This document shows, piece after piece, positions 25,928 to 35,157 of a stretch of DNA of 35,157 nt. The position numbers and the translations under genes were made by a program. Location: the NCBI GenBank assembly GCA_002721275.1, contig PBJZ01000002.1, positions 161,836 through 196,992 on the forward strand, read 5' to 3'. The notes under the pieces were generated by a model. It worked only from the letters and a program-made list of their open reading frames with translations, was not told the origin of the DNA and did no database searches. How positions within the stretch are numbered: position 1 is the stretch's first letter; each line of letters starts with the position of its first letter. The stretch comes from Flavobacteriaceae bacterium (GTDB lineage: Bacteria; Bacteroidota; Bacteroidia; Flavobacteriales; Flavobacteriaceae).

Positions 25928-27448
25928 TTAATCTGGACATCCATTTAATTCTTTTTTACCAGGGACATCAGGGCAATTATCAATTTTGTCAATTACCCCA
26001 TCTCCATCTGAATCTTCATCTCCAAAATCCCTATCTTCCAGCAAATCTTTTGGTGCTTTCAAATTTTTATTGTGTATTTCTAATATCTCATTAATGGCTA
26101 ATAAGGCCTCAGGGTGTTTATCAGCAATATTATATTTTTCCGATGGATCTATGTCTAAATTATAAAGTAAAGGTTCATCTAAAACTATTTTTATATTACT
26201 TCCTTTGGGGTAATCGTATGATCCTTGGGTAATAAAGTGAGCTTTATAGCTTCCGTTACGAACAGCATAAACTTCTCTTTCACGATAGTAAAAGATTGTT
26301 TTTCTTTTAGACGCTTCATGATTAAGTAATGTGCTTTTAATACTAATCCCATCCATTATTCTGTCTTTTACCATGTCTATATCAGTCATATCCAAGATAG
26401 TAGGGAATATATCCATAGTTGAACCTAAATCACTTATAACACCAGTTTTTATGCTAGCTCCCCAAAAAATTGCAGGTATTCTCTGACCACCTTCCCATGT
26501 AGTAGCTTTTCCGTTTCTCAATAAACCTGCAGATCCTGAATGAGATTCGAATGGTAACCATGGACCATTGTCTGATGTGAAAATAATTATTGTATTATTA
26601 TCTAGTTTATGTTTTTTTAATTCTTGAACAATTAATCCAATACCATGGTCGATTTCTTCAATTACATCACCATATAGGCCTCTTTTACTTTTTCCTGAAA
26701 AATCGTCTGATGTAAAAAGAGGAGTGTGTGGCATGTTATGAGCTAAATAAATAAAAAAATTATTTTCCTTGTTATCTCTTATAAAATCTATAGTTTTTCT
26801 TGAAAATCGCTTAGTTATTGTTGTCTGATCTACAGGCCTCTCAATAATACTATTGTTCTCAATAAGTGGAATGTTATAGTTTGTCGACTTTGGTTTTTTA
26901 GTATTATATTTTTGCCAATATTGACCTCCTGGACAACAGGTCTCACCGTTTATTTTATCCATATCATTTGAATATGGAATCCCAAAATAATAATCAAATC
27001 CATGTTGAAGAGGGAGATAGTCTATTTTGTGTCCAAGGTGCCACTTGCCAATTATAGCTGTTTTATAACCGTTATCTTTTAATTTTTCTGAAATTGTAAT
27101 CTCAGAACTTGGTAATCCATTTCTTGAGTTTGGAAAAAGAACTCTATCTTTTGCTCCAATCATACCATTTCTGATTGGAAGTCTACCGGTTAGTAATCCC
27201 GCTCTACTGGGTGTACAAACACTTGAGGCAGAATAAAACTGTGTCCATTTTTGACCTTGTTGAGCTAAATTGTCTAAATTCGGTGTTTTAATTGTGGGGT
27301 GACCGTATATTCCTAAATCTCCATATCCCATATCATCCACAAATACAACAATAAAATTTAAATTTTTTTTAACTTTTACATTTTTGCAAGAGTTTAAAAT
27401 AAAAAAAGACAGTGTTAATGAAAATATTTTTAAAATGTAATTATTCAT
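25928..27448 (-). CDS. Lipoprotein sulfatase with C-terminal calcium-binding tail
   Basis: A 506-residue family S1-type sulfatase. MNNYILKIFSLTLSFFILNSC gives a lipobox with Cys21. Metal ligands appear in VVFVDDMGYGD (D38, D39), and the formylglycine site is CTPSR with Cys78 inside SVCTPSRAGLLTGR. Further marks are GKWHLGH and TSDNGPW. The last 35 residues, DEDSDGDGVIDKIDNCPD..., form a thrombospondin type 3-like Ca2+-binding unit, unusual for a sulfatase. A maturase (FGE or anSME) would be needed from elsewhere; none is in the window. The likely substrate is a sulfated polysaccharide, but no glycoside hydrolase or SusCD pair is adjacent, so specificity is open. Confidence 0.9.
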   Translation of the reverse strand: MNNYILKIFSLTLSFFILNSCKNVKVKKNLNFIVVFVDDMGYGDLGIYGHPTIKTPNLDNLAQQGQKWTQFYSASSVCTPSRAGLLTGRLPIRNGMIGAKDRVLFPNSRNGLPSSEITISEKLKDNGYKTAIIGKWHLGHKIDYLPLQHGFDYYFGIPYSNDMDKINGETCCPGGQYWQKYNTKKPKSTNYNIPLIENNSIIERPVDQTTITKRFSRKTIDFIRDNKENNFFIYLAHNMPHTPLFTSDDFSGKSKRGLYGDVIEEIDHGIGLIVQELKKHKLDNNTIIIFTSDNGPWLPFESHSGSAGLLRNGKATTWEGGQRIPAIFWGASIKTGVISDLGSTMDIFPTILDMTDIDMVKDRIMDGISIKSTLLNHEASKRKTIFYYREREVYAVRNGSYKAHFITQGSYDYPKGSNIKIVLDEPLLYNLDIDPSEKYNIADKHPEALLAINEILEIHNKNLKAPKDLLEDRDFGDEDSDGDGVIDKIDNCPDVPGKKELNGCPD

Positions 27449-27549: not shown

Positions 27550-28335
27550 ATGAAAAATATTATAATTACCCTTGTCTTCTTATTTAGTGTATCAATACAT
27601 TCTCAAGATATGTCAAATGTTCACAGAGTTTTTGAAGAAATTACTTTAAATAATGGCTTAGTCGAGGAGTATGCTGGATTTGAAAGTTTTTGGGGGACTG
27701 TTAAAGAGAAACAAATCAAAGATGGAAATCTACTAGGTTGGTTTGTATGGAAAGTTGATCCAAAAAGTAATGATAACCAACCTTGGACTGATTATATAGT
27801 TTTAAATGTTTTTGCTAATAAATCTCAGATGGATAAAATGAATTCTAAAGATGCTGAATGGTGGAATAAATACATAAAATCAGCACATAAAGGTAAAACA
27901 AAAAGATCAGTGATAAAAAAGTATTTGAAGGAGACTACAGATAATAAGTACAGAAAAAAGTCTGTAACTTATACTGTAAAAGGACTTGGTGTAATCTTAA
28001 CTGAACAGGCAGCCCCACAGGAGGGAACAAAAGCAGTCTACAGAGGAATTGAACAATTAAATTATGATTATGTAGACTTCGAGTTGAATTATTTTAAACC
28101 ATGGCACGAAGCTACTTCATCGAGGTTATATTGGGAGGTTAACGAAATTTTAAGTAGGTCAGATAATGCATATAAGCCTGTGACTCACACTATTTTTGAA
28201 ATAGTTAATCCAGATGTATCATCTAATAATGAAAATCTTTCTTTTACAGACCAAATGATGATAAAATACGGAGTTGCAAGTAGAAAAGAACATGGAAGAT
28301 TAGATCTCGAATTAATGAATTGGAGATGGAATTAG
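27550..28335 (+). CDS. Secreted protein of unknown function
   Basis: A 261-residue protein with a clear signal peptide (MKNIIITLVFLFSVSIHSQ). I cannot name a family. The body looks like two related alpha/beta halves. The first has FEEITLNNGLVEEYAGFESFWGTVKEKQIKDGNLLGWFVWKVDP. The second has FELNYFKPWHEATSSRLYWEVNEILSRSDNAYKPVTHTIFEIVNP. Both resemble the strand-helix-strand pattern of small dimeric alpha/beta-barrel (ABM/EthD-like) domains; this is inference. It is monocistronic, flanked by a possible promoter element and a hairpin terminator, and transcribed away from the sulfatase gene. Confidence 0.72.
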   Translation: MKNIIITLVFLFSVSIHSQDMSNVHRVFEEITLNNGLVEEYAGFESFWGTVKEKQIKDGNLLGWFVWKVDPKSNDNQPWTDYIVLNVFANKSQMDKMNSKDAEWWNKYIKSAHKGKTKRSVIKKYLKETTDNKYRKKSVTYTVKGLGVILTEQAAPQEGTKAVYRGIEQLNYDYVDFELNYFKPWHEATSSRLYWEVNEILSRSDNAYKPVTHTIFEIVNPDVSSNNENLSFTDQMMIKYGVASRKEHGRLDLELMNWRWN

Positions 28336-28473: not shown

Positions 28474-29028
28474 TTAATAATGTATTAACGAAAATATACC
28501 ATAATTTCCATGATGTGAAATAGAGCAAGACTTTGTTAATATTGTATCCTCATGGTAATATATTGGAGCTCCATTTTTTAATTTTTTTTGTTTAATCTTA
28601 GTAGATGAAAATTTTGTTAAAGCCTCTAACTTTATTTTAATCTTCGAGTCAATGTATCTAGGTTTTACAAATTCAGTATAAGTATTTATATGCTTATCTG
28701 TATATGCAATAGAAGAGATGAAGTTTTTGTTTATAATTGACATTGTATAAAAAATCTCGTTATTGAAATAGACTAATCCTTCCAATTCTGAAATTAACAT
28801 GCAATCAAATTTTTTTGGAGCAAAAAAACGTGTTCCAGTAATTTGTGTATTTATCTTGTAGGCTGCTTCTTTCATGCTCCAAAATCTCCAAATCAAATTA
28901 AATGAATTTTTTGACGATATTATGAGACTCCTCTCATTGTCTGTAAATAGCTTATTTAGAAAATTTTTTCGACTCCAATTGCTTTCCTTTTCAGCAATCG
29001 ATAGGTCAACAATATCATTCCCAATCAA
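28474..29028 (-). CDS. 4'-phosphopantetheinyl transferase
   Basis: A 184-residue enzyme that should transfer phosphopantetheine from CoA to the adjacent carrier protein. GNDIVDL (3-9, with Asp5 and Asp8) and WRFWSMKEAAYK (47-58, Glu54) are the two signature blocks of the AcpS/Sfp superfamily. It is the last gene of the eight-gene operon. The start is TTG at 29028, sharing TTGA with the stop of the carrier protein gene; no ATG is available upstream and the GNDIVDL motif sits directly after the start. Having a private transferase suggests that the cell's AcpS may not activate this carrier. Confidence 0.87.
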   Translation of the reverse strand: MIGNDIVDLSIAEKESNWSRKNFLNKLFTDNERSLIISSKNSFNLIWRFWSMKEAAYKINTQITGTRFFAPKKFDCMLISELEGLVYFNNEIFYTMSIINKNFISSIAYTDKHINTYTEFVKPRYIDSKIKIKLEALTKFSSTKIKQKKLKNGAPIYYHEDTILTKSCSISHHGNYGIFSLIHY

Positions 29029-29279
29029 AGTTGTTGTAGTTTTATTTCAATGATATCAATTGCGGACTTAACAGAAAGCATTTTTTCCATGGATTCATTA
29101 TCAATTTCAATGCTATATTCATCTTCTACATCAAGAATAATATCAACTAAATTGGCTGAGTTGATCTTTAAATCATTGATGAAATCGGTTTCTTCAGACA
29201 GATTTTCGAAGGCTTTTTGATCTTGAATGTATGGTTTAACAATCTTTTTTAGTGAAGTTATAATTTCTTTCCTTTTCAT
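29025..29279 (-). CDS. Acyl carrier protein of the type III PKS operon
   Basis: An 84-residue acidic carrier protein. The phosphopantetheine attachment serine is Ser41 in LKINSANLVDIILDVEDEYSI, with Asn in place of the common Asp before Ser. Helix III is followed by MLSVKSAIDIIEIKL. This would hold the growing acyl chain while the ketosynthase, dehydratase and reductase of the operon act on it. It is preceded by a 72-base gap from the ketosynthase, the widest in the operon, and overlaps the phosphopantetheinyl transferase by 4 bases. The dedicated partners suggest it is distinct from the housekeeping AcpP. Confidence 0.9.
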   Translation of the reverse strand: MKRKEIITSLKKIVKPYIQDQKAFENLSEETDFINDLKINSANLVDIILDVEDEYSIEIDNESMEKMLSVKSAIDIIEIKLQQL

Positions 29280-29351
29280 TTATATTTTATTTAATATTTG
29301 TTCAATTGCAACAATTTGTAATATCATGGTTAGGATCAAACAAATTAATTT

Positions 29352-30620
29352 TTAATATCTCTTAAAAATAATACATCCATTCACATCACCAAAACCAAAA
29401 CTTGCCTTTGCAATTACGTTTAATTTCATTTTCAACATTTTAGTTGGAATTTTTTCTTTTGAAATTAATTTTAAAATTTCAGGATGTATTCTCTCGCAAT
29501 TTATATTTGGAAAAATAAATTGATGTTTTAATTGTAGAACTGTTGCAATGATTTCTATTGCAGCTGCTGCCGCTAAGCAGTGGCCTGTCATAGATTTTAG
29601 TGAGTTTATTATGGGAAATTTATCACCTTTTCTTTTCATAGCTTTTGTCCAGTTTTCAATTTCCAGAGTGTCTTTTGAAGTAGCTGTCAGATGACCATTA
29701 ATAGCATCAACTTGTTCACTTTTTACACTTGCATCTTTCATGGCATCTACAATACATTTTTGTACAGCATCTGGATTTGGAGCAGTAATTGTCCCACCAT
29801 TTCTTTGACCACCAGAATTCAGATTTCCCCCCAACACCTCGGCATAAATTTCTGCTTTTCTATCTAATGCACTTTTCAATGATTCCAAGACCAGAGCTCC
29901 AGCTCCGCTTCCAGGTACAAATCCTGATGCCATTGCACTCATTGGCTTAGAACCTTTTGTTGGACTCTGATTGTGTTTGTAAGTCATAACTCTCATTGCG
30001 TCAAATCCACCCCAAATATATGGACCGTCATCACTACAACTACCAACTAACATTCTTATCGCTTTACCAGATTGTATCCTTTCAAACCCCATCAGTAGTG
30101 CCTCTGTACCGGTTGAGCAAGCAGATGAGTTTGAAGTAACTTGATTGCCTAGTCCTAAAATTCCGCCTAAATATGCACTAACTCCACTTCCCATAGTTTG
30201 AACTACAACAGTGCTTCCAAGACGTTTTACTTTTTTGTTATCCAACTGGTATATTGCCTCTCTAAATTTATCAATTCCAGAAGTCCCTGAACCAAACACC
30301 ATTCCAGTCTCATAGTCAATAGATGAGTCTTTATTAATTTTAAATCCCGCATCTCTCCATGCATCCATACCGGCAATACATCCATATAAAATTCCAGAAC
30401 TATTAAAACCACGTAATTGTAAGGGTGATAGGTATTTACTTTTTAATTCTTGAGTAATTGGTGGAATTCCACCAATACAGCACGAAAAGTTCAAGTCCTC
30501 TAACTTTTGATGATGTCTAATTCCTGATTTTCCTTGTTTAATTGCTCCAAGGAATTCGTCTAATCCAATTGCATTGGGAGCGACTACACCCATTCCAGTA
30601 ATCACAACTCTATTTTTCAT
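29352..30620 (-). CDS. Beta-ketoacyl-ACP synthase (KAS I/II type)
   Basis: A 422-residue thiolase-fold condensing enzyme. The Cys-His-His triad is complete: C168 in SSACSTGTEALL, H310 in INGHLTATSKDTLE and H347 in KSMTGHCLAAAAAIE. It should extend the acyl-ACP by two carbons per cycle using malonyl-ACP. I place the start at ATG 30620, two bases after the dehydratase stop; a TTG at 30626 overlapping that stop would add two residues. It is not a chain-length-factor: the active cysteine is present and there is no second KS gene. Confidence 0.92.
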   Translation of the reverse strand: MKNRVVITGMGVVAPNAIGLDEFLGAIKQGKSGIRHHQKLEDLNFSCCIGGIPPITQELKSKYLSPLQLRGFNSSGILYGCIAGMDAWRDAGFKINKDSSIDYETGMVFGSGTSGIDKFREAIYQLDNKKVKRLGSTVVVQTMGSGVSAYLGGILGLGNQVTSNSSACSTGTEALLMGFERIQSGKAIRMLVGSCSDDGPYIWGGFDAMRVMTYKHNQSPTKGSKPMSAMASGFVPGSGAGALVLESLKSALDRKAEIYAEVLGGNLNSGGQRNGGTITAPNPDAVQKCIVDAMKDASVKSEQVDAINGHLTATSKDTLEIENWTKAMKRKGDKFPIINSLKSMTGHCLAAAAAIEIIATVLQLKHQFIFPNINCERIHPEILKLISKEKIPTKMLKMKLNVIAKASFGFGDVNGCIIFKRY

Positions 30621-30622
30621 AC

Positions 30623-31063
30623 TCAAATGATTTTTACCATACCTGATATTGTTCCTCTACTGACCAGCTCATTCTTGTTATTGAACATTTGAACTTTGCA
30701 TTTTAGTTTATTAAACCTAAAAAATATTTTTTCTGAGATAACCCTTACTTTTTCTTTTGGTTTGACTGATAAAAAAAAGTCTATTTGATTTGATGTAAGC
30801 GCAATTTTTGGTTTATTTTTTAAATCAATTTGATGATTTAATAAATATATACCAAGACAAACCAGACCTATTTGGGCCATTACCTCAATTAGAATCACTC
30901 CTGGGGTAATAGGATTATTTTTAAAATGTCCCAAATAAAAATATTCATCCTTTTTAAAAGTATAATATCCTTCTATTCCATTTTTTGATATGTTTGTTAT
31001 TTTTTCCACAAACATAAAGGGGTACTGATATGGTAAAAATTTTATAATATTTTCTTTTTTCAA
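30623..31063 (-). CDS. FabZ-like 3-hydroxyacyl-ACP dehydratase (hotdog fold)
   Basis: A 146-residue hotdog protein. LPYQYPFMFVEKI (10-22), GHFKNNPITPGVILIEVMAQIG (45-66) and the catalytic pair His46/Glu60 match FabZ. It would remove water from 3-hydroxyacyl-ACP. The start is TTG at 31063: no in-frame ATG lies upstream before residue 17, and this start gives the usual short lead before LPxxYPF. It is 29 bases after the SDR gene and 2 bases before the ketosynthase ATG, consistent with coupled translation. Confidence 0.88.
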   Translation of the reverse strand: MKKENIIKFLPYQYPFMFVEKITNISKNGIEGYYTFKKDEYFYLGHFKNNPITPGVILIEVMAQIGLVCLGIYLLNHQIDLKNKPKIALTSNQIDFFLSVKPKEKVRVISEKIFFRFNKLKCKVQMFNNKNELVSRGTISGMVKII

Positions 31064-31092
31064 AACTTTAAACTTTTTAATCCAGGATAAAC

Positions 31093-31887
31093 TTAATTAA
31101 TATGTTCCCCTCCATCAACAGTTATTGTAGTTCCATTAATCCACTTTGCTTCATCCTTACATAATAAATATACTACGTTTGCGATATCTTCAGGCTTTGT
31201 TAATCTTTTAAATGGATTACGTTTTAAAGTGTATTCTTTTATTTTGTCACTTTTTGGTATCATTCTAAAAGACGACGTATCAGTTACTCCAGCTTGAATA
31301 CAATTAGTTCTTATTCCAAAAGGAGCAAATTCTAAAGCGATATTTCTAGTTATAGCCTCTAATGTTGCTTTTGCAGCGGATATGGCAGCATAACTTTTCC
31401 ATGCCTTTTTATTGCCCTCGCTTGTAAAACTAACCACTCTGGAGTCTTTTGAAAATAGTTTAGCCTCAAAGATTAATTTAACCCATTCGTAGAGGCTTAT
31501 TCCCATCGTTTGTATTGTTAAACGAAAGTCATCTGATTCTAACGTTGGTTTTGAATTTGAAACCATAGGTTTTAAATTACCTTTAGCAATACTATGTACT
31601 AAGATTTTTATTTTACCTCCACGCAATTCTTTTTTCAAATTTTGCATGAATTTCTGTCTTTTGTCTGACTTAAAAGCATCAATATTGTAACTAGTAAAAG
31701 AAACTAATTCCTTTGAAATTATTTTGAAGTTTTTGTCTATTTCATCCAATTCAGATCTCAGGTTTCTGTGTATAATACATATATTCATTCCATGCTTAGC
31801 TAATTTTACTGCTGTTGCAAATCCCAACCCGGTTGATCCACCAAGTATCAATGCCCATTCATTTTTATTTTTAAATTCTTTCACCAT
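31093..31887 (-). CDS. SDR reductase with enoyl-ACP reductase-like active site
   Basis: A 264-residue Rossmann-fold oxidoreductase. The cofactor loop is GGSTGLGFA (17-25). The active site reads SYAAISAAK, with Tyr166 and Lys173, i.e. Y-x6-K as in FabI/FabL enoyl reductases; at the Y-x3-K position used by FabG the residue is Ile169. ATLEAITRNIALEFAPFGIRTNCIQAG and ITVDGG complete the fold. I therefore favour enoyl-ACP reductase of the FabL type over 3-ketoacyl reductase, though family membership alone does not settle it. It overlaps the type III PKS gene by 7 bases. If it is an enoyl reductase, the ketoreduction step must use the housekeeping FabG. Confidence 0.85.
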   Translation of the reverse strand: MVKEFKNKNEWALILGGSTGLGFATAVKLAKHGMNICIIHRNLRSELDEIDKNFKIISKELVSFTSYNIDAFKSDKRQKFMQNLKKELRGGKIKILVHSIAKGNLKPMVSNSKPTLESDDFRLTIQTMGISLYEWVKLIFEAKLFSKDSRVVSFTSEGNKKAWKSYAAISAAKATLEAITRNIALEFAPFGIRTNCIQAGVTDTSSFRMIPKSDKIKEYTLKRNPFKRLTKPEDIANVVYLLCKDEAKWINGTTITVDGGEHIN

Positions 31888-32933
31888 TCTAATAAAATTC
31901 TTTGAGCAGTAAATCCAGGACCAAAACTCAACATTAGTCCTTTATCACCTTTTGGTATATTTTTATCCATGAATCTCTCTAATACATATAAAACTGTGGC
32001 ACTTGACATATTACCGTATAAATTTAAAACTTCTTTCGTGTCATCAATATTTTTTCCAAATGAATTGAATAAATTTTCTACTGTATTTACAATTTTTTTT
32101 CCTCCTGGATGAAAAATCAAATGATTTATATCTCCTATTGTTAAGCCATTTCGGATTAAAAAAGGATGAATGATTTTTGAAAAATGATTTGAAATGGTTT
32201 CTGGAACTTTCTTATCAAGGATCATTTCTAAACCTGTATTGACTAATTTAAAACCCATGATATCAATTGAGTCATAAAAATGGTACATTGATTCATCTAT
32301 AACTTTAGGTCCAATATCTTCATCACATGAAGATAGAATAACACTAGAGGCACCATCACCAAAAATTGCTGCACTCACAATATTTGCCATTGAAAAATCT
32401 TCTAACTGAAAAGTTGCTGTTGGGGCTTCAACTGAAACTACTGCCGCTCTTTTATTAGGGTTAGATTTTAAGAAGTTTTTTGCGTAAATAATTCCTGAGA
32501 CACCAGCAACACAACCCATTTCCGTTACTGGAAGACGAGTGATATCATGGTTCATTTTTAAATTATTTATTAAATATGCATCTACAGATGGAATCATTAT
32601 TCCTGTGCAGCTGACGGTTATGATGAAGTCAATGTCTGTTGGTTTTAAAATTGCTTTTTCCAGAGATTTTTTCAATGATTCCTCTGCAAGTTTTGTTATC
32701 TCTTTCATGTAGATATTATTTTTCTCTTCAAAAGATGAATTGAAAAAAACTTCATCAACATCCATAATAGAGTAACGTTTATCTACACCAGCCCCCTCAA
32801 ACATCTTTACAACTTTTCTTTGAAATCTTTCATCTTGACCTTTTACCCAGTTTTTGACATAAGGAATAATATCTTTTGTTTTTCGAACGTATTTTGGTAA
32901 ATGCTTAGCTACAGATATTATTTTTATACTCAT
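31881..32933 (-). CDS. Type III polyketide synthase (chalcone/alkylresorcinol synthase family)
   Basis: A 350-residue condensing enzyme. The Cys-His-Asn triad is visible: C141 in MGCVAGVSGI, H275 in IFHPGGKKIV and N308 in YGNMSSATVLYVLE. The C-terminal FGPGFTAQRILLEW is the GFGPG loop of type III PKSs and separates it from FabH. It should condense an acyl starter with several malonyl units and cyclise to a resorcinol, pyrone or phloroglucinol ring. Its neighbours make and hold an acyl chain, so a long acyl starter is likely and the product probably an alkyl-resorcinol or alkyl-pyrone (inference). It is third in the operon, after the oxidoreductase and methyltransferase. Confidence 0.93.
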   Translation of the reverse strand: MSIKIISVAKHLPKYVRKTKDIIPYVKNWVKGQDERFQRKVVKMFEGAGVDKRYSIMDVDEVFFNSSFEEKNNIYMKEITKLAEESLKKSLEKAILKPTDIDFIITVSCTGIMIPSVDAYLINNLKMNHDITRLPVTEMGCVAGVSGIIYAKNFLKSNPNKRAAVVSVEAPTATFQLEDFSMANIVSAAIFGDGASSVILSSCDEDIGPKVIDESMYHFYDSIDIMGFKLVNTGLEMILDKKVPETISNHFSKIIHPFLIRNGLTIGDINHLIFHPGGKKIVNTVENLFNSFGKNIDDTKEVLNLYGNMSSATVLYVLERFMDKNIPKGDKGLMLSFGPGFTAQRILLEW

Positions 32934-32954
32934 TATGTAAATATTTATAAAATG

Positions 32955-33674
32955 TTATTTAATATTTTTCTTTAATAACCACAAATAACGGAAAGCCCAT
33001 TTCCATTTAATTGAAAAACTAACTTTCATTTGCGTGGAGATAGTCTCTATTTCTTCTCTTTTAAAAGCCTTTAATATTGAAATTAATCCATCCTCTATTA
33101 CCATCTTATTTTTTATAAAATATCCCATAAACTTAAAAAGATAGTATGCTAATATATTTCTATGCAAGTCATTTACAACAATACCAATTAATGAATTCTT
33201 TAAAATAATGCTTAAAATAGATATAATTTCATCATTGCTAAAATGGTGCATAAATAATGTACACAATGCGATATCATACTCTTGATTTTTAAAATCATCT
33301 GAGAAAATATCAATTTTTTTAAAATTAATTTCTGGATATGATTTTGATAATTCTTTTGCATAATCGATTGCTGCAGCATTTGCGTCAATTCCAATAAGTT
33401 TAAATAAATAATTTTCTTTTCTGCCAAACATTGCTATATCTCTTAAAATATCACCATTACCACAGCCAAGGTCTATAATTCTGATGACTTTATTTTTGGG
33501 TTGATTTTGAAGAAGTTTTTTTAGGCCTGTAATTGTTACTTTATTTCCTCCTAAAAACCTATTGATTAACTCTAGCTTGTCTAATGTGTCTCTGTAAATA
33601 ACTCCTTTAATACTAAAGTCATCCATGATTTCCATTTTAGTAGATCGATATGAAGTATCAACTAAAAAACTCAT
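32955..33674 (-). CDS. Class I SAM-dependent methyltransferase
   Basis: A 239-residue Rossmann-fold methyltransferase. Motif I is IIDLGCGNGDIL (66-77); the ribose-binding acid is Asp97 in LIGIDANAAAIDYAKELS; motif IV is DIALCTLFMHHFSNDE. The C-terminal part is basic. Such enzymes next to bacterial type III PKSs commonly O- or C-methylate the ring, so the product of the adjacent PKS is the probable substrate. The start overlaps the oxidoreductase stop by ATGA, and the PKS follows 21 bases after its stop. This family also includes ubiquinone/menaquinone-type methylases; nothing suggests those pathways here. Confidence 0.87.
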   Translation of the reverse strand: MSFLVDTSYRSTKMEIMDDFSIKGVIYRDTLDKLELINRFLGGNKVTITGLKKLLQNQPKNKVIRIIDLGCGNGDILRDIAMFGRKENYLFKLIGIDANAAAIDYAKELSKSYPEINFKKIDIFSDDFKNQEYDIALCTLFMHHFSNDEIISILSIILKNSLIGIVVNDLHRNILAYYLFKFMGYFIKNKMVIEDGLISILKAFKREEIETISTQMKVSFSIKWKWAFRYLWLLKKNIK

Positions 33675-34807
33675 ATTACTTTTATATTTTTTCCATGAGT
33701 AAATTGAATCATCTTTGGTAATAAAAATGGAATCATTTTTATAATTGAATAAGTAATCTGTGAGAAAATTTCACTTCTAAATAACCATGCAATAAAATGC
33801 CCCATTTTTAATCTTGTTTTAAATTCTTTATTCCAACTTATTAAATATTGATTTTCTAAATCCTTTCTATTTTTAATTTCCCCATTTAAAAATTGAATTA
33901 TCAATTCACTTGCTAATTTTGAACTTAAGATGGCCATCCCCATCCCATTTCCACACAACGGATGAATCATACCTGCAGTATCACCGCACATAATAATGTG
34001 ATTCTCTACAGGATTTTTCGTTTCGAAGGATATTTGACTTATTGTTAATGATTTTTTGAATAAAGAGGTAGATTCCTTAAAAATTTTTTTTAAATGCTTA
34101 TTTTTAAATACTACTTGATTTTGAAAATCAGAAATATTTTTATGTTTTTTAAATGAACTGTATTCAGTGATGTAGCATAAATTGATTGAATTGTTTTCTA
34201 CCTTAGACACACCGCAATATCCTCCTTTAAAATTATGTAATCCTATTAAGTCATCAGGAAATTTACCTTTTACATGTGATTTAACAGCCAAGTAAGGTGA
34301 CTTTTTTCGAATGAATTTTCTATTCATCTTTATATCCAAATCTGATCTTTTACCATAAGCACCAATTGCAATCTTACTCTTGAATGTTTTAGAATTTTTT
34401 GTTTTTATAATGAATAGATCATTTTGAAAAATAATCGATATTACGGAATCTTTTATAACTTTCACTCCGTTAAGACATGCTTTTTTTAACAACAAATTAT
34501 CAAAAAAATAACGGCTCATTCCAAAACCTCCAAGTGGAAGATTACCTTTTATTAAACTGCCGTTTATTGTACTAACATGAACTCTATTAATTTTTTTTGC
34601 ACCCTCCATGATGGGATCAATTTCTAATGAATTCAAATACGGAATTACTTCGTTAGATATATACTCCCCGCAAACCTTGTGTTTTGGGTATGATTGTTTT
34701 TCTATGACCAACACTTGTTTTTTTAATTTAGATAAATGAATAGCGCTAGTGAGTCCGGCCAATCCACCACCAACAATGACAACATCAAAAGATTTGATTT
34801 TTTTCAA
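33671..34807 (-). CDS. FAD-dependent oxidoreductase (geranylgeranyl reductase/hydroxylase family)
   Basis: A 378-residue flavoprotein of the p-hydroxybenzoate hydroxylase fold. FAD motifs: VGGGLAGLTSAIHLSK (12-27) with IEKQSYPKHKVCGEYIS (35-51), and MCGDTAGMIHPLCGNGMGMAI near residue 285. The PxxKxCGE block is typical of the GGR/tryptophan-halogenase-like group. It is first in the operon. By analogy with SrsC of Streptomyces it may hydroxylate or oxidise the methylated phenolic ring to a quinone; reduction of a polyene is the alternative. The start is TTG at 34807: an in-frame stop lies five codons upstream and no ATG intervenes. No consensus promoter was found before it. Confidence 0.87.
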   Translation of the reverse strand: MKKIKSFDVVIVGGGLAGLTSAIHLSKLKKQVLVIEKQSYPKHKVCGEYISNEVIPYLNSLEIDPIMEGAKKINRVHVSTINGSLIKGNLPLGGFGMSRYFFDNLLLKKACLNGVKVIKDSVISIIFQNDLFIIKTKNSKTFKSKIAIGAYGKRSDLDIKMNRKFIRKKSPYLAVKSHVKGKFPDDLIGLHNFKGGYCGVSKVENNSINLCYITEYSSFKKHKNISDFQNQVVFKNKHLKKIFKESTSLFKKSLTISQISFETKNPVENHIIMCGDTAGMIHPLCGNGMGMAILSSKLASELIIQFLNGEIKNRKDLENQYLISWNKEFKTRLKMGHFIAWLFRSEIFSQITYSIIKMIPFLLPKMIQFTHGKNIKVI

Positions 34808-34895: not shown

Positions 34896-34921
34896 AAACC
34901 CCCACTAAATAGTAGGGGTTT
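34896..34921 (-). terminator. Hairpin terminator downstream of the tRNA-Ser fragment
   Basis: AAACCCCCACT (34896-34906) pairs with AGTAGGGGTTT (34911-34921) with one mismatch and a 4-base loop. On the minus strand it is followed by a T-rich run (TTTGTTTTTCT), so it should stop transcription coming from the right. It sits 12 bases after the tRNA-Ser 3' fragment, as a native tRNA terminator would. It also shields the biosynthetic operon from upstream read-through. Confidence 0.75.
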
Positions 34922-34933
34922 ACAAAGGATTAA

Positions 34934-34948
34934 GCGGAGAAGGAGGGA
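34934..34948 (-). other. 15-base tRNA-Ser 3'-end fragment (putative att core)
   Basis: On the minus strand, TCCCTCCTTCTCCGC equals the end of a tRNA-Ser: T-arm 3' strand, acceptor strand CTTCTCC and discriminator G. Immediately upstream, the expected TTCGAA T-loop is replaced by unrelated sequence, and no tRNA body follows in the remaining 200 bases. With its terminator intact, this is what remains at one end of an element that integrated in a tRNA-Ser gene and rebuilt the tRNA at the other end. Confidence 0.6.
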
Positions 34949-35055
34949 ACACAAACTATGAAATATTGCTCTCTAGCAAAACTCCCTAAAAAATAGTAAA
35001 AACTCAATTAATACAATACTTTACACCTTATTTAACACTCTCTCTTTCTTTCATC

Positions 35056-35085
35056 AAATTGCATTAAATTGCTTTAAATTGTATT
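35056..35085. repeat. Three tandem 10-base repeats (AAATTGNNTT)
   Basis: AAATTGCATT, AAATTGCTTT and AAATTGTATT follow each other directly with 10-base period, one turn of the helix. Such phased short repeats are typical of protein-binding arrays, here possibly arm-type integrase or excisionase sites next to the att core. Confidence 0.6.
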
Positions 35086-35088
35086 TCA

Positions 35089-35110
35089 CCGTACAAATGC
35101 CGTACAAATA
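35089..35110. repeat. Direct repeat of CCGTACAAAT, 11-base period
   Basis: CCGTACAAAT occurs at 35089-35098 and 35100-35109, separated by one base. It lies 3 bases after the AAATTG repeats and is the most GC-containing motif in this edge. Its position near the tRNA fragment suggests a recombinase arm site; I cannot show which protein binds it. Confidence 0.6.
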
Positions 35111-35157
35111 TTAATAAATTATTTATCTTCATATACATGAATTTAAATTTATAATGG

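Follow-up and report, generated by a model that had tools for sequence, protein, structure and literature searches.

Near the end of the window (the whole 35,157-nt stretch of DNA analysed here, from a Flavobacteriaceae bacterium) lie eight genes, all on the minus strand between positions 28474 and 34807, where the original prediction had placed eight leftward genes, several of them overlapping. The first in the direction of transcription, as also in related loci, encodes an FAD-dependent oxidoreductase of the geranylgeranyl-reductase/UbiH-like superfamily (33671..34807). After it come genes for a SAM-dependent methyltransferase (MT; 32955..33674), a type III polyketide synthase (PKS; 31881..32933), an SDR of the enoyl-ACP-reductase type (31093..31887), a FabZ-like hot-dog dehydratase (DH; 30623..31063), a FabF-type ketosynthase (KS; 29352..30626), an acyl carrier protein (ACP; 29025..29279) and a 4'-phosphopantetheinyl transferase (PPTase; 28474..29028). 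Four junctions overlap: MT/FAD, KS/DH and PPTase/ACP by 4 bases each and SDR/PKS by 7. The window stops where its contig does, with 350 bases left on the upstream side of the FAD gene. In a sister genome (G002) the unit is followed on that side by a tRNA-Ser and a TatD gene, so no operon gene is expected beyond the contig end. Promoter and terminator scans found sites no more numerous than in shuffles, and scans of the window for tRNAs and for Rfam families (at the gathering threshold) gave no match.

The families named beforehand for the eight proteins hold up in Pfam and NCBIfam, with the subtype of the SDR and the score of the ACP in need of qualification. The key catalytic residues said to be visible are there and invariant in all PKS, KS, DH and ACP rows compared, judged by the catalytic motifs of their families. 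These counts, and the PKS tree used below, draw on 101 rows, 100 of them different: the window, 88 of 89 related loci (L040 dropped) and 12 more.

The PKS matches Chal_sti_synt N and C in Pfam and has the CHS-like fold and Cys-His-Asn triad of a type III PKS, with C141/H275/N308 in 101/101 rows, the window included. Its predicted structure (pLDDT 93.8) lies nearest, among solved structures, to PKS11 (Z 52.2), whose entry title names methyl-branched alkylpyrones, and then to CylI (Z 48.5), solved structures of which contain a beta-ketoacyl mimic or a resorcinol product. An identity as DpgA can be set aside: the NCBIfam score is 163.7 bits against a cut-off of 425, and the match is generic, since 8/8 other Bacteroidota type III PKSs tested have it in common. 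A search for plasmid-borne relatives returned 167 records, all below 60% identity, with 33.1% the best among the matches listed.

The two genes upstream would act on the ring. The FAD protein scores above cut-off for the Pfam DAO and FAD_binding families and below it for TIGR02032 (103.5 bits, cut-off 158.8), and is likely a ring hydroxylase or oxidase. Its N-terminal glycines are missing from six rows, owing to start or frame calls. The MT is above the Pfam cut-off for Methyltransf_31 and Methyltransf_25, and its SAM-motif residues D68/G70 are present in 99/100 rows; they are missing in L061, again through start or frame calls.

Then there are the four genes of a kind found in type II fatty acid synthesis, together with their PPTase. 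The DH (PF07977, 50.6 bits) keeps H46/E60 in 98/98 rows. The KS (PF00109 and PF02801) keeps C170/H312/K344/H349 in 94/94, and scores 256.4 bits against TIGR03150, the FabF equivalog, whose cut-off is 493.75; its catalytic residues are present nonetheless. The ACP falls below cut-off both in Pfam (17.7 bits against 20.8) and with TIGR00517 (38 bits). Its phosphopantetheine site reads Asn-Ser where Asp-Ser is usual, N40-S41 in 94/94 rows, with Ser41 invariant. The PPTase (PF01648, 44.8 bits) has a gene that overlaps or abuts that of the ACP in 70/71 neighbouring pairs; it stands apart from the unit in 5/9 relatives and is not beside an otherwise complete unit in 8/89 loci. Two loci (L072 and L075) show an extra MT-like match between the ACP and PPTase genes.

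The SDR had been called simply a reductase. The family stands, and the type can now be narrowed to enoyl reductase. It carries a Y166-X6-K173 pair in 79/79 rows, the catalytic pair of FabL/FabI-type enoyl-ACP reductases. A FabG-type ketoreductase is rejected, the Tyr position of YxxxK being Val or Ile in 79/79 rows. Among solved chains the SDR comes closest to 3oic, an enoyl-ACP reductase [NADPH] (88.4 bits), by a slim lead over the runner-up at 82.5 and the best FabG at 76.0. Its best NCBIfam match is FabL itself (NF005975), at 148.2 bits well short of the equivalog cut-off of 328, and the protein may work like FabL though it is not filed as FabL. If the SDR acts as an enoyl reductase, as it seems to, some enzyme from outside the operon has to carry out ketoreduction. 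A malonyl transferase and a KAS III are also missing from the eight genes, which therefore fall short of a full fatty acid synthase. The earlier claim that the operon has its own dissociated fatty acid synthase thus survives in part: type II enzymes do lie here, beside a separate housekeeping set, but they do not make up a full one. Elsewhere the genome has a separate FabF-ACP pair, a FabA/Z-type frame and a FabI-like gene (read by eye), and two PPTases were found in it, the operon's own included.

How constant is the arrangement? Related loci were picked by similarity to the PKS of the window, 9 and then 80, giving 89 (87 distinct, since L031/L040 and L032/L068 are duplicate contigs by their length and genome; L052 and L054 derive from one bin). 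A search for the gene set in other genomes, as had been suggested, shows that a unit of seven to eight genes recurs in relatives in a fixed order. KS, DH and ACP were all detected beside the PKS in 81/89 loci, in one gene order. In five of the eight exceptions (L041, L051, L058, L080 and L109) the locus ends at a contig end. In L061 the FAD, MT, DH and KS genes are in broken frames, and in L119 the unit is split, with DH-KS-ACP-PPTase kept on another contig. The last, L089, is a metagenome bin with FAD-MT-PKS-SDR and no DH, KS or ACP, whose genome shows only a FabF of 32% identity. The PKSs form a discrete clade, found in 33/395 sampled genomes of the phylum, 30 of these in the family of the window. 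Of these 33, 12 were checked and 12/12 have KS, DH and ACP beside the PKS, as against 0/20 more distant type III PKS loci, four of which were stretches of less than 18 kb (6.8 to 15.9 kb). Among 40 relatives, close copies of KS and DH occur in 10/10 with the PKS and in 0/30 without it. The linkage between PKS and synthase-like genes, on whose presence in relatives the original prediction had staked itself, is therefore strong, clade-specific and reciprocal. Across related loci the overlap at three junctions has a median of 4 bases, and the reading of the eight genes as one operon is supported.

Of known systems, the nearest begins with SrsABC of Streptomyces griseus, where a type III PKS, a methyltransferase and an oxidoreductase share an operon. 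The parallel drawn earlier between SrsABC and the head-group part is confirmed: here too the type III PKS, methyltransferase and flavin oxidoreductase adjoin, which is what marks operons of the Srs/Hid type. Passages on HidABC (hierridins, Cyanobium) and on planctomycete operons describe type III PKSs with a methyltransferase and an oxidoreductase (PMC10896814). They mention operons of two, three or five genes, and in them KS, DH, ER (enoyl reductase), ACP and PPTase go unmentioned. The locus would be a new form of these phenolic-lipid operons.

A second parallel concerns the supply of the chain. In Azotobacter, ArsD acts alongside ArsA as the type I fatty acid synthase that feeds ArsB and ArsC. 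In the ArsABCD system of Azotobacter vinelandii the ACP domain of ArsA carries fatty acids that are described as passing directly to ArsB and ArsC, two Streptomyces type III PKSs likewise accept acyl-ACP, and the synthase is type I according to the title of the primary paper cited (all in the review PMC6274091). The same source places the residue that switches ring type at W281 of ArsB and G284 of ArsC. A synthase in the same operon that feeds type III PKSs is thus the known case there and, from the genes, the proposal here. The differences are that separate type II proteins (84 to 424 aa, none a multidomain type I synthase) replace ArsA/ArsD, as had been foreseen and as the eight reading frames confirm, that no ketoreductase is included and that ring-modifying genes are added. 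Chains handed over from carrier proteins also figure in PMC8086630: HidC, with a proposed C14 acyl-ACP start unit, and the cylindrocyclophane pathway, where a PKS-extended chain on a free-standing ACP goes to the type III PKS CylI and becomes an alkylresorcinol. CylI is the second-nearest fold to the PKS studied here, but its pathway as described there has type I PKSs, a halogenase and an alkylating enzyme, families absent by Pfam from the eight.

A type II KS, DH and ACP beside ring formation is also the pattern of flexirubin/dialkylresorcinol (DarA/DarB) and aryl polyene clusters of Bacteroidota. The PKS here, by contrast, scores 22.5 bits against the DarB dialkylresorcinol synthase model (NF053539), whose cut-off is 550, and the eight genes include neither a ketoreductase nor an acyltransferase nor a second KS.

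I propose that the operon encodes a dedicated pathway whose product is a ring-headed lipid, and consider this probable, given the fixed order, the reciprocal linkage, the invariant residues, the separate housekeeping copies and the fold neighbours of the PKS. The PPTase would prime the operon's own ACP, on which the FabF-type KS would lengthen an acyl chain. A housekeeping enzyme would supply ketoreduction, the FabZ-like protein would dehydrate and the FabL-like SDR, where present, would carry out enoyl reduction. The acyl or beta-ketoacyl chain would then leave the ACP for Cys141 of the type III PKS; this enzyme would add malonyl units and cyclise the product to a resorcinol or pyrone, to be oxidised and methylated by the flavoprotein and the MT. 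As predicted, Pfam finds neither a thioesterase nor an AMP-ligase family in any of the eight proteins; direct transfer from acyl-ACP to the PKS is what gene content suggests. The ring would be a resorcinol, pyrone or quinone. It is most likely that many marine flavobacteria carry one conserved gene set for such a lipid. Points against a dedicated pathway are that the operon lacks a ketoreductase, malonyl transferase and KAS III, that the PPTase is sometimes apart, and bin L089. Gelidibacter and Winogradskyella strains are examples of relatives with the full operon.

This model raises the question of what happens where the ER gene is missing, as in 22/101 loci; within Polaribacter, P. glomeratus (L067) has it and P. 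irgensii (L059) lacks it. Presence and absence change at least nine times on the PKS tree, a quick tree (37/97 inner branches below 80% support) that does not tell gain from loss. Such a pattern predicts a switch in chain saturation. As an addition to the dedicated pathway, loci without ER might leave the double bonds in place and make polyenyl ring lipids, resembling aryl polyenes, the saturated form being the other branch. There is no sign that the gene has moved elsewhere: in 13/13 genomes searched, covering 13 of the 22 ER-less loci, the best remaining SDR match is at most 31% identical, and the catalytic residues of KS, DH and ACP are intact in the ER-less rows examined too. A type III PKS cluster of Aequorivita, moreover, appears in PMC6139392 with the antiSMASH label 'T3pks-arylpolyene'. 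A housekeeping enoyl reductase could do the step all the same, and the FabI-like gene of this genome is a candidate, which leaves the polyene branch doubtful. A further five ER-less loci include L188, where a weak SDR match of 78 bits lies about 1 kb past the FAD gene, on the opposite strand.

An alternative view is that the pathway resembles Srs and Hid but runs on ordinary acyl-CoA or on housekeeping acyl-ACP, while the operon's KS, DH, ER and ACP alter the chain only slightly, by a single elongation or double bond, or serve a different product. Three planctomycete type III PKSs, from MT-oxidoreductase-PKS or MT-PKS operons, gave alkylresorcinols in C. glutamicum from the fatty acyl groups of the host, and passages on them propose CoA-activated fatty acids as substrates (PMC10896814). 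No chain-initiation enzyme lies in the operon, moreover, and in one bin KS, DH and ACP are missing although the PKS is there. Against this alternative stand the reciprocal co-occurrence, the single gene order and the retention of both halves in the genome where the unit has split, and I think it unlikely. That two unrelated pathways travel together on a shared promoter is very improbable: genes can cluster for other reasons, and in the sister genome the unit has tRNA-Ser on one side and a tRNA-end copy on the other, as mobile cargo can, but the linkage is clade-specific over many genera and the genes overlap.

The proposed pathway bears on a common class. Type III PKS clusters make up 10.74% of predicted biosynthetic clusters in Flavobacteriaceae, about a tenth (PMC10734526), and antiSMASH counts or labels for those of flavobacteria or Bacteroidota also appear in PMC7440613, PMC9860996, PMC9859067, PMC6139392 and PMC12843772; no type III PKS passage was found in PMC9248904. 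The passages on flavobacterial type III PKS clusters name no product, a weak negative, as many subscription papers lay outside the search. A unit found through its PKS in 33 of the 395 sampled genomes of the phylum gives this class a testable pathway, and variation in the ER offers an experiment of nature on the control of chain saturation.

The product is also a candidate lipid for the envelope of marine bacteria. By BLAST clustering, a YceI-like neighbour accompanies 31/89 loci and an MMPL-like neighbour 15/89; Pfam tests covered two of the YceI members and one of the MMPL members, and the latter scores below the NCBIfam HAE3 cut-off. The lipid/isoprenoid-binding gene described in the operon of 'S. 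ferox' recalls the YceI-like neighbours. Such company suggests transport toward the envelope, and in lineages with these neighbours the lipid may go toward the outer membrane. The fullest version of the proposal, in which a dissociated type II synthase with a private Asn-Ser ACP feeds acyl- or beta-ketoacyl-ACP directly to the type III PKS, repeated gain or loss of the ER switches between saturated and polyene ring lipids and, in some lineages, MMPL-like and YceI-like proteins move these to the outer membrane, I put forward only tentatively.

Eight ORFs on the minus strand were confirmed at 28474-34807 of the window, where the original prediction had placed eight leftward genes, several of them overlapping. 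Four junctions do overlap (PPT/ACP by 4 bases, KS/DH by 4, SDR/PKS by 7 and MT/FAD by 4), and the others leave gaps of 72 bases (ACP/KS), 29 (DH/SDR) and 21 (PKS/MT). Family searches agree with the protein families already assigned: a flavoprotein of the geranylgeranyl reductase/UbiH superfamily (FAD), a methyltransferase (MT), a type III polyketide synthase (PKS), an SDR, a FabA/Z-type dehydratase (DH), a FabF-type ketosynthase (KS), a carrier protein (ACP) and a phosphopantetheinyl transferase (PPT). The catalytic residues that had been visible in one sequence do not vary across the rows examined. The window runs to the end of a contig, from a genome of 1.62 Mb that is 83% complete. Adjoining the operon are a sulfatase (25928-27448), whose C-terminal stretch weakly resembles thrombospondin type 3 repeats (below the cut-off), and a 261-aa protein with no Pfam match (27550-28335).

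There is little reason to regard the chain-building genes as chance neighbours of the PKS. In a sample of 395 genomes of the phylum, the clade to which this PKS belongs is found in 33 (own genome counted) at 626 bits or more, 30 of them from the window's family and three from other families of the class, and a further 140 genomes have matches of 251 bits or less. Neighbourhoods were examined for 12 of the 33 clade genomes and for 20 of the lower-scoring 140. Relatives of KS, DH and ACP lie beside the PKS at all 12 clade loci and at none of the 20 lower-scoring loci, four of which have relatives of MT and FAD only (one FAD match is weak, at 31 bits). The linkage is reciprocal. Among 40 relatives, the same ten genomes (own counted) that carry the PKS at 64% identity or more, and no others, carry the KS at 59% or more (E up to 1e-60), and those ten carry the DH at 47% or more. 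Among the remaining 30, six have weaker DH matches (33-41%), which in five cases lie in frames of 458-470 aa. Because the 40 relatives are akin to one another, these co-occurrences cannot be counted as independent events. A lack of conserved linkage in relatives, which would have spoken against the original prediction, is not what the genomes show.

The order FAD-MT-PKS-SDR-DH-KS-ACP recurs in all nine other PKS-bearing relatives; the PPTase adjoins the unit in four, and other genes are inserted within it in two. At least 80 further loci came from named genomes (at least 578 candidates), the matches listed including Polaribacter, Winogradskyella, Psychroserpens, Lacinutrix, Gelidibacter, Tenacibaculum and Aequorivita. 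The nine relatives and 80 listed loci make a set of 89, of which 87 are distinct. The search of other Flavobacteriia for the eight-gene set, proposed at the outset, thereby bore the association out: KS, DH and ACP were all detected with the PKS at 81 of the 89, and the detected genes keep one order, save for one locus with broken frames and two with an extra MT-like match. The junctions are close, with overlapping or abutting genes in 70 of 71 ACP/PPT pairs and in 79 of 87 FAD/MT pairs. The PPTase is not beside the ACP at eight listed loci where the rest of the unit is present. In one genome (that of L119) the unit is divided between two contigs, FAD-MT-PKS-SDR lying apart from DH-KS-ACP-PPT, and a metagenome bin (L089) is an exception to the linkage as far as its sequence reaches. 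Inserted material was seen in three related loci: a gene with DUF218 and hemopexin domains (L032, 7306-8532), extra gene material (L034, 11397-13903) and an extra gene between DH and KS (L107).

How complete is this set of enzymes? Judged by sequence, the SDR is of the enoyl-reductase (ER) type. Tyr-X6-Lys is present in 79 of 79 rows, FabL heads the NCBIfam matches (below its cut-off), and among solved chains an enoyl-ACP reductase comes first at 88.4 bits, with other SDR and FabG chains close behind (82.5 and 76.0). The operon would then supply KS, DH, ER, ACP and PPTase, and ketoreductase and malonyl transfer must come from elsewhere, so the idea that it has its own dissociated fatty acid synthase holds for those five components and not for these two functions. 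Elsewhere the source genome encodes a second FabF-type KS adjoining an ACP gene, a second PPTase, and a second FabA/Z-type protein whose 476-aa frame looks by eye like LpxC-FabZ. Its SDR matches number 13, with FabG-like and FabI-like ones recognisable by eye among them. The copies in the operon are thus additional ones. The usual carrier-protein motif at the phosphopantetheine site is Asp-Ser. In this ACP (29025-29279) and 93 relatives it is Asn-Ser, in 94 of 94 rows, which together with the overlapping PPTase gene suggests an insulated carrier. The invariant Asn could be a mark for recognition by the operon's own PPTase.

The ER is the dispensable member. It is absent from 17 of the 89 listed loci and five of 12 further ones (22 of 101 rows), its state changes at least nine times on the PKS tree, and no close copy was found elsewhere in 13 ER-less genomes tested. 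In five Polaribacter loci (L055, L063, L070, L078, L080) the gap between the PKS and DH genes holds an ORF of the REP-associated tyrosine transposase type where relatives carry ER; the one tested matches Y1_Tnp above the Pfam cut-off and the REP-transposase model below its own. Because KS, DH and ACP keep their residues, the pathway probably remains functional without ER, either making a less reduced chain or relying on a housekeeping reductase.

The head-group trio (type III PKS, methyltransferase, flavoprotein) is the one found in Srs/Hid operons, in keeping with the parallel first drawn with SrsABC. In C. glutamicum, planctomycete enzymes encoded in such operons yielded C15 and C17 alkylresorcinols (PMC10896814). 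For HidC an acyl-ACP starter is proposed (PMC8086630), and ArsB/ArsC take chains from the fatty acid synthase of their own operon (PMC6274091). Given HidC and ArsB/ArsC, hand-off from an ACP to a type III PKS would not be new in itself. Mycobacterial PKS11 (Z 52.2, rmsd 1.4 over 345) is the closest match to the predicted structure of the PKS (pLDDT 93.8) and leads by sequence comparison too; cyanobacterial CylI (Z 48.5, rmsd 1.6 over 346) comes next. CylI is described as making an alkylresorcinol from a chain that is carried by a free-standing ACP and extended by type I PKSs (PMC8086630). This resemblance is compatible with, though no proof of, a long or beta-keto acyl starter. What may be new is the dissociated, clade-specific type II set with its dispensable enoyl reductase, of which no description was found in the accessible parts of the literature on type III PKS systems. 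The accessible parts of the flavobacterial literature count or label such clusters, and no product was found there: type III PKSs are 9% of Flavobacteriaceae clusters mined in one study and 10.74% in another (PMC7440613, PMC10734526), one cluster, 69% identical to a Zobellia enzyme, is labelled 'T3pks-arylpolyene' (PMC6139392), and an Aquimarina family is termed unlike any known cluster (PMC9860996).

At 31 of the 89 listed loci a YceI-like gene lies directly beside the unit, 28 times upstream of FAD (-14 to +5 bases) and three times downstream (-8 to +18). YceI proteins are a family of lipid-binding periplasmic proteins. An MMPL-like transporter lies directly downstream at 15 of the 89 (-23 to +63 bases). 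Such neighbours, neither of which was found at the operon of the window or of its sister genome, suggest that the product is a lipid and is transported away from the inner membrane.

Within the genus, the PKS is present in two of seven genomes, all incomplete (68-90%). The sister's operon adjoins tRNA-Ser(GGA) and TatD, with an imperfect copy of the tRNA end (17 of 22) at the opposite side. A third genome has other genes in that place, between the tRNA and a copy matching at 18 of 22. When the window was shuffled five times, the best match was 14 of 22 each time, and the tRNA-end-like stretch at the window's own contig end is at that level (14 of 22); the intact tRNA of its genome is on another contig (C23). 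The stretches concerned are 34914-35157 of the window and, on related contigs, 513-7119 of L031, 7535-10846 of L223 and 186-274 of L225. This arrangement suggests that the operon site is a hot spot for insertion. In the operon, window and sister are 92% identical at the DNA level, against 84% in the flank beyond the tRNA (C23 compared with the sister), and the operon was perhaps transferred recently.
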